Source: Candidatus Sulfotelmatobacter sp.
GTDB lineage: Bacteria > Acidobacteriota > Terriglobia > Terriglobales > Acidobacteriaceae
Direction: 5' to 3'
DNA length: 19,993 bases
Assembly: GCA_030037575.1 (NCBI GenBank)
Contig: JASHRB010000541.1
Span: 1 to 19,993 of the forward strand
Shown here: one piece after another, positions 3,744 to 4,712 of the stretch
Layout: every line of letters begins with the position of its first letter
Numbering within the stretch: position 1 is the first letter of the stretch
Notes under the pieces: generated by a model
What the model was told of the DNA's origin: nothing
The model's input: the letters and a program-made list of their open reading frames with translations, nothing else
Databases searched by the model: none
Made by a program: the position numbers and the translations under genes

Positions 3744-4712
3744 CTAACTGAATGTGGGCAGTTTCACCAGATCATCTTTCGGCACCGGCTCGACGGGTTC
3801 TCCGGCTTTGCGCCAGGCGGCGAAGCCGCCGACGATCACAAACGTGTTGAACCCTTTTTCCCGCAGCAGATGCGCCACACGGGCGCTGGTGGCCTCGCGT
3901 GCTCAAGTGCAGTACAGGTAGATGTCTTTGTCTTTGGGAAGGTTTTTGATTTCGTTCTCAAGATTGTTGGGCTCAATTCGAATCGAGTTCTTAATTCGAG
4001 CCGCACCGGCATCGTAATAGCCGTGGCTCCGCACGTCGACGATCTGCACTCGATCGGCATCCTGTGACGCCAGGCGTCGCGCCAGTTCTTCCACCTGCAC
4101 ACGCGGCACGATGCTGTAGATGCGATTCTTGTGATATTGCCTGATGCGATAGATGGCATAAACACCGAGCGCCGCGATAACAACGATTTCCATGGCTCTG
4201 CTCGCCGCATGAAAACCGTTGAGAATCGCGGCAAGAAAATCGCGCGAAACATATCCGATCGCAAGATAAGCTAATACGTATAGGGAAGCGCCGCTCGATT
4301 CGAGGCGCAGGAACTGCCAGAAGCGCATCTTCATGCTGCCCGCTAACGGCGCAGCCATGGTGTTCACGCCGGGGATGAACTTTGCAATCACCAGGGTCAC
4401 CTTGCCGCGCCTATAAAACGACTCTGCCGAACGAAGAATGCAGGTTTCCGGATTGATTGAAACGCGGCAAAGAAATCCCAGTAATGCCCAACCCATGAAT
4501 CTGCCTAGCCAGAATTGCGCGCTATCGCCGAGGATGAGGGCCGTGATCGCCGCAACGAGCACATACGGACCCCACAGGGCGTGGGCGGCGACAGCCGCTC
4601 CGGCCGCAACCAGGGCGACTGCCGCGGGGAAGGGAAGTCCCATGGCTTCGGCGAGGAGAAACCAGAAGGTCCAAGCATAGCCGTGGCGCGCCATCAGCAT
4701 TATCAGATTCAT
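3744..4712 (-). CDS. VTT/DedA membrane protein fused to a rhodanese domain, probable selenoprotein (in-frame TGA at residue 270)
   Basis: The N-terminal part (about 1-195) is a polytopic VTT/DedA domain with hydrophobic segments, the FIPGVNTMAAPLAGSMKM re-entrant-type motif (near 113-130) and ESSGASLYVLAYLAIGY. Residues about 205-322 form a rhodanese domain: VQIVDVRSHGYYDAGAARI, then the active loop YCT-TGA-AREATSARVAHLLREKG, then FVIVGGFAAWRKAGEPVEPVP, ending at TAG. The TGA (3903-3905) falls at residue 270, two after presumed catalytic Cys268; relatives as I recall them have C-x-C there. Downstream reading is complete and family-like, and a SECIS-like hairpin follows. I infer selenocysteine insertion; a simple Cys-to-stop mutation is the main alternative. 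DedA proteins include undecaprenyl-phosphate flippases, and rhodaneses transfer sulfane sulfur. The fusion's substrate is unknown. A standard caller would end it at 3903, giving 269 residues. Confidence 0.8.
3872..3886 (-). promoter_or_regulatory. Candidate bacterial SECIS hairpin in the VTT-rhodanese mRNA
   Basis: On the minus strand the mRNA reads GCGCC-CGUGU-GGCGC, a perfect 5-bp GC stem with a 5-base loop, starting 16 nucleotides after the TGA. The loop begins 21 nucleotides after the TGA and has G as its second base, followed by U. This agrees with the known bacterial SECIS pattern: a hairpin immediately downstream, an apical G within the first two loop positions, and roughly 16-37 nucleotides of spacing. 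A weaker lower helix (CACCA with UGCUG, one mismatch) can extend it across a 3-base bulge. A competing 5-bp stem, GCCAC/GTGGC, also exists. SelB binding is inferred only. Confidence 0.6.

Follow-up and report, generated by a model that had tools for sequence, protein, structure and literature searches.

This locus raises the question of whether a TGA codon inside a gene for a membrane protein is a stop, an error or a codon for selenocysteine (Sec), and, if the last, what a selenol might do in such a protein. The gene occupies positions 3744..4712 on the minus strand (the strand of all features described here) of the window, by which we mean the whole stretch of 19,993 nucleotides that was analysed. 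It runs from ATG to TAG in a conserved frame and encodes 322 residues if UGA270 is read as Sec. The translation is M...IYLYCT-U270-AREATSARVAHLLREKG...KLPTFS-TAG, and it contains exactly one internal stop, the TGA at 3903..3905, two codons past Cys268. The earlier note on this DNA had described this arrangement, with a complete rhodanese C-terminus running on to the TAG, and had proposed a VTT/DedA-rhodanese fusion; the translation and the Pfam matches agree with it on both points. The membrane domain (VTT, DedA/SNARE-associated, PF09335; residues 29-154, 4251..4628) scores 38.8 bits against a cut-off of 33.9 and is helical in the structure model. The rhodanese domain (PF00581; residues 208-302, 3807..4091) scores 50.1 bits against a curated cut-off of 22.2, has the rhodanese fold and crosses the TGA. 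A basic stretch near residues 187-205 follows the last membrane helix and suggests that the rhodanese domain probably lies on the cytosolic side of the inner membrane.

Conservation of the TGA codon and its exchange with cysteine

When genome contigs were scanned with the read-through protein, 34 related loci were found, all of them acidobacterial and 12 from Candidatus Sulfotelmatobacter. The TGA is present at site 270 in 33 of these 34 loci, which come from other assemblies; the site is unreadable in one (L047), and another (L048) has the TGA but its frame is broken further upstream. The same genus gave 46 matches in 43 of 45 genomes at E 1e-60; 42 of them extend over residue 270, each with a single TGA, and the other four end before it. 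Across the order, 220 of 249 genomes were matched at E 1e-40. Each of the best 46 of these 220 has a single TGA in a near-complete match (55-100 % identical, 20 genus codes), and a match in G214, spread over several contigs, also has one, which gives 47 TGA-form genomes in the order. In a wider sample of the phylum, 55 of 297 genomes were matched at E 1e-30, with a TGA within the match in 28; 20 of these 28, scored by the presence of a TGA and not by its position, sit in 11 other family codes. Two distant matches stand apart, one with two in-frame TGA codons (G443:C53:4760-5680) and one with a TAG (G040, C5:1917551-1918438).

A count of homologues at residue 270, which the earlier note had proposed as a check, was made on the best 120 of 6522 protein matches, the window's own shortened frame included. 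Ninety-six end at YCT and 24 read on, and the residue at 270 in the latter is Cys in 22, Arg in one (P0004) and Ser in one (P0052), but never Trp. All 22 of the stop-free loci that were fetched also encode Cys at the site, and the statement of the earlier note that relatives carry C-x-C in this loop is correct. In the kept columns P0004 differs from one TGA-form row nowhere else, and its Arg may thus stem from an error or from loss. The site was masked to construct a tree of 93 rows, on which the label Cys requires 10 changes, at least three of them forced by starred branches; Sec and Cys have thus been exchanged repeatedly.

The family comprises two paralogous subfamilies. Subfamily A has mostly the motif YLYCTUAREATSA; the second VTT-rhodanese subfamily, B (L086-L103), is 32-36 % identical to the window protein, has mostly IILYCTUPNEATSA and shares with A the C-T-U motif and an almost identical downstream hairpin. 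In an alignment of 119 rows, many of which are near-copies and not independent (over 150 bases, subfamily A yields 62 distinct sequences), the 79 A rows and 18 B rows have U in column 270 and the 22 stop-free rows have C, so that every row has U or Cys at the predicted Sec codon. Each of the 79 A and 18 B rows has exactly one in-frame TGA in the aligned span, always in the same column. The loop motif was not found in L047, L048 or L123, and L111 was left out of the DNA counts. Two members of subfamily B (L093 and L099) have Ser instead of Arg and other hairpin loops (AGTCT and AGTTT).

A candidate SECIS hairpin

A SECIS-like hairpin, GCGCC-CGUGU-GGCGC, lies at 3872..3886, or +19 to +33 when the T of the TGA is 0, and was recognized by conservation of its pairs and by RNAalifold; most of the genes have GCGCC-CGKGU-GGCGC at these positions. 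Bacterial SECIS elements are described, in the available part of the source, as hairpins just downstream of the UGA whose small apical loop contains a G (PMC1088965). The hairpin of the window has both features, although the minimum-energy fold of the same region is a different one. With identical and short rows dropped, and L104 and L105 removed from the Cys set, all five pairs are intact in 62/62 A sequences, 16/18 B sequences and 1/20 Cys forms. In L049, a member of subfamily A, both sides of one pair have changed, from C-G to T-A. Codons 276, 277, 279 and 280 are each 98-100 % a single codon in subfamily A, and codons 277, 279 and 280 are variable in the Cys forms.

The consensus energy from RNAalifold is -9.06 for A versus a mean of -0.98 on synonymous resampling, and -8.4 for B versus -0.72, with a value as low in 0 of 200 resamplings in either case; the Cys forms give 0.0. 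The energies of single sequences are less telling: in A the value (-16.06) is no lower than that of the synonymous control (-16.3), and in B (-13.76) it is somewhat below the control (-12.12). When 42-54 bases of the window's own gene are folded, the minimum-energy structure is not the hairpin. Because neither this fold nor the energies in A lend support, the case for the predicted hairpin is evolutionary and comes from its conservation. The hairpin core GCCCGKGTGGC follows a TGA at three places in the source genome, namely this gene, L144 and L145; the latter two are possible further selenoproteins or may reflect chance.

Selenocysteine machinery and the reading of UGA

The source bin is 82 % complete and consists of 751 contigs. 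Of the genes that the earlier note had suggested seeking there, selB (365.5 bits, cut-off 242.25), selC, encoding tRNA-Sec (67.5 bits, cut-off 47, with UCA in the anticodon loop), and selD (378.4 bits, cut-off 125) all score above their cut-offs. The selD gene (L149, G000:C165:468-1397) itself contains an in-frame TGA, in AAG-U-ASKLS, which is presumably the usual SelD Sec site. For selA, the best match in this 82 %-complete bin has 68 bits, below the cut-off of 267.9, and covers residues 354-454, and another piece covers residues 1-51. These C-terminal and N-terminal pieces (L013 and L017) are on different contigs, and selA is perhaps split by the assembly. Of 14 control genomes, those of E. 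coli and M. jannaschii alone have selB above its cut-off, and tRNA-Sec was called in these two and Thermus composti at a strict threshold and in five genomes at a loose one; a tRNA-Sec call alone is therefore no proof.

Among the matches listed of the order scan, selB was found at E 1e-85, always above the cut-off, in 44 of 47 TGA-form genomes versus 2 of 41 stop-free genomes, 20 of which were checked and all have Cys. tRNA-Sec, again among the matches listed, is present in 45/47 versus 2/41. Three TGA-form genomes were missed in this way. With a lower E-value limit, G092 yields a selB match of 276.1 bits, above the cut-off; in G168 there are fragments, and in G118 no match exceeds the cut-off. 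tRNA-Sec is present in all three. Two further TGA-form genomes (G117 and G235) have no listed tRNA-Sec, and both have selB. Genomes with a TGA-form B paralogue have selB in 18 of 18 cases and stop-free B genomes in 7 of 41, among the matches listed. We note that two genomes (G160, with L139, and G123, with L140) carry the Cys form yet have both selB and tRNA-Sec, and that five genomes of the order (G090, G119, G193, G204 and G225) each have two tRNA-Sec matches above the cut-off.

In the phylum sample, from which G472 was left out as the site is not covered, selB occurs in 27 of 28 TGA-form genomes, G324 being the one with no selB match, and in 2 of 26 stop-free genomes, a class defined by the absence of a stop and not by Cys as a set; 8 of the 28 and 23 of the 26 are shared with the order sample. 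Outside the order the figures are 19/20 for TGA-form and 2/3 for stop-free genomes, and with selB present in two of the three latter the contrast says little there. The sampled genomes are related, and the selB and tRNA-Sec counts are not independent.

Three other readings of the codon have to be weighed against Sec. Were the TGA a true stop, the product would be a 269-residue VTT protein with half a rhodanese domain, or the gene would be decaying, and gene callers do indeed end the protein there, as in the 96 of the best 120 matches that stop at YCT. However, purifying selection is the same on both sides of the codon, with a median omega of 0.130 in the 50 codons before the TGA and 0.132 in the 50 after it (425 of 600 sampled pairs, those kept after limits on the range of dS, from 60 of 61 distinct sequences). 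The completeness of the rhodanese domain across the TGA, the retention of the TGA in the 46 near-complete matches (20 genus codes, the best listed) and its replacement by Cys argue in the same direction; a true stop or decay is rejected, and we regard this reading as very improbable. A one-base error of sequencing or assembly might be suspected in a bin as fragmented as this (751 contigs). Such an error is refuted, since TGA recurs at this site in other assemblies (33 of 34 loci), in 47 of the order's genomes and in the paralogous subfamily; we take its probability to be negligible.

There remains readthrough without Sec, by a near-cognate tRNA or under a changed code, in favour of which it can be said that an open frame alone does not tell which residue is inserted. 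In this window, however, TGA serves as an ordinary stop, for it ends six of the 12 other genes that were checked. Moreover, 22 of the 24 read-on proteins among the best 120 matches have Cys at the site and none has Trp, the hairpin is missing in 19 of 20 Cys forms and selB accompanies the TGA form within the order. Recoding to another residue is rejected on these grounds, and we give it scarcely any weight. The selenoprotein reading put forward in the earlier note is thus upheld by the exchange of Cys and TGA, the loss of the hairpin in Cys forms, the equal selection and the Sec machinery; judged from these comparisons of sequences, we place the probability that UGA270 is read as Sec at about 0.97. 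That this recoding and the proposed domain anatomy both hold is likely as well.

Possible function and comparison with known systems

The entire Cys and Sec content of the protein is Cys82, Cys91, Cys268 and Sec270. Cys268 (3909..3911), the presumed sulfur acceptor, is present in 119/119 rows, is the first residue after a strand (263-267) in the structure model, as expected of the catalytic Cys, and is supported by a gapped profile alignment to domain 2 of 6mxv. In an ungapped phmmer alignment, by contrast, it is residue 270 that falls on the catalytic Cys of 6mxv; the loop that holds Sec270 is two residues longer than usual. In the VTT domain, Cys82 (4467..4469) and Cys91 (4440..4442) are each invariant in the 116 of 116 rows with a residue at that position, and both are found in all 45 rows of another set. 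Alignment of E. coli YqjA and DedA reveals no counterpart of either.

On the preferred reading, SelB and tRNA-Sec decode UGA270 as selenocysteine, aided by the hairpin from +19 onwards, and the product has a VTT domain in the inner membrane and, after it, a rhodanese domain. The four residues suggest how this protein might work. Cys268 would take up sulfur or become oxidized, Sec270 would resolve it as a selenenylsulfide, and equivalents would be exchanged, in one direction or the other, with Cys82 and Cys91 in the VTT domain; the persulfide or thiol state could thereby drive or gate the membrane domain. Such a membrane-bound selenol/thiol relay from Cys268/Sec270 to Cys82/Cys91, deduced from patterns of conservation, is a tentative proposal. 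The fullest version, a two-subfamily selenoprotein family of Acidobacteriota in which a four-residue relay (Cys82, Cys91, Cys268 and Sec270) couples VTT to a Cys-x-Sec rhodanese and transport at the membrane is driven or gated according to persulfide or redox state, is more doubtful still. As to what the VTT domain moves, our first guess is a polyprenyl lipid carrier.

The guess about the substrate touches on the gene neighbourhood, in which the counts are affected by some of the 34 loci ending short. A polyprenyl synthetase gene (PF00348, 4767..5756) lies upstream with 54 bases between and is present in 29/34 related loci, and a gene for a CYTH-domain protein (PF01928, 3083..3637) lies downstream and is found in 28/34, as is a YajQ gene nearby. 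The polyprenyl synthetase neighbour fits, but does not show, a link to a lipid carrier.

An alternative is that the protein is a DedA-type undecaprenyl-phosphate flippase, the rhodanese being an accessory sulfurtransferase that Sec only speeds. The VTT domain and the upstream polyprenyl synthetase favour this, yet the synthetase ends within 200 bases of the gene in only 6 of the 29 loci. The scores of the window protein are far below the UptA and DedA cut-offs, and the invariant Cys82 and Cys91 lack a counterpart in YqjA or DedA. In the alignment with YqjA and DedA, an arginine pair of these two proteins, assumed here to correspond to the pair described as essential in YghB, falls on Lys111 and Asn117, the latter position being Asn, Ser, Gly or Ala in relatives. 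In the accessible text of the 2023 DedA survey that pair is placed in the second re-entrant helix, and, in favour of the alternative, the DedA-rhodanese fusions of COG0586 are among proteins proposed to be C55-P flippases (PMC10127716). The redox relay is preferred to a plain flippase because of the pattern of Cys82 and Cys91 and the loss of the second arginine, and we regard the flippase as possible but not favoured. Rhodanese chemistry also fits a role in the handling of sulfur or selenium: the protein might, for example, deliver persulfide or perselenide at the membrane, or it might protect the cell against selenite. A DedA protein of Cupriavidus has been tied to selenite resistance or uptake (Ledgham 2005, as cited in the available parts of PMC10127716 and PMC2744661). 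However, Cys forms persist in genomes in which selB was looked for and not found; the protein thus has some use besides selenium metabolism, and we think a role of this kind unlikely.

If the gene does encode a selenoprotein, a membrane selenoprotein of many genomes would be added to a phylum in which, in Table 2 of a 2006 survey, four selenoproteins in three families were counted (PMC1794560). In the deep-Sep study, as far as its available text goes, one organism listed under Acidobacteriota was tested, with three known and no new selenoproteins reported (PMC12013277). Gene callers shorten most of the closest copies (96 of the best 120 matches). The protein also offers a testable handle on rhodanese domains fused to DedA transporters, the role of which is called unclear in the part of the 2023 survey at hand (PMC10127716), and the occurrence of Sec and Cys forms among close relatives permits a direct test of the benefit of selenium.

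The earlier note had suggested that both the membrane fusion and the CxU geometry might be new. The latter is rejected: an inventory of 119 selenoprotein families or subfamilies (PMC13188914) includes, in the portion available, a CxU rhodanese, NF041203 (form 3). The former stands so far, since Table 1 of that inventory and a word search of its available text for DedA, VTT and SNARE gave no DedA or VTT entry. A literature search on selenoprotein, DedA and rhodanese, with subscription papers mostly and preprints wholly outside its scope, returned no paper, and a search on selenoprotein and DedA returned, among the matches listed, none on a Sec-containing VTT-rhodanese by title, which is a weak test of absence.

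The closest known relative is NF041203 (rhodanese_LYCAU), the best NCBIfam match of the window protein and likewise a rhodanese with Cys-x-Sec. However, the window protein scores 88.3 bits against it and three members of subfamily B score 83.2-88.4, all below the cut-off of 115 and so outside the family as defined. NF041203 is a rhodanese-only model of 126 positions, whereas the window protein carries a fused membrane VTT domain; the middle residue of Cys-x-Sec is Thr in the window protein and, by the name of the family, Ala in NF041203. TsoB, a rhodanese/DsbD fusion-like protein, and the thiosulfate transporter YeeE/YedE, both in Table 1 of the same inventory (PMC13188914, as available), are similar by name, both being selenoproteins linked to sulfur and to a membrane or redox partner, and differ, again by name only, in their Sec motifs (UxxxxU and GUxSG) and in their other domains. 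E. coli YqjA and DedA can be aligned along the whole VTT domain but have neither a rhodanese domain nor Cys82 and Cys91, and they have an arginine pair in place of Lys111 and Asn117. The DedA-rhodanese fusions of COG0586, such as PA1209 of P. aeruginosa (PMC12893004), share the order of PF09335 followed by PF00581, but Sec is not mentioned for them in the available text of either source (PMC10127716, PMC12893004). CxU rhodanese selenoproteins and DedA-rhodanese fusions are thus both already known, and it is their combination, a Sec-containing membrane VTT-rhodanese fusion, that is new so far as these searches show.
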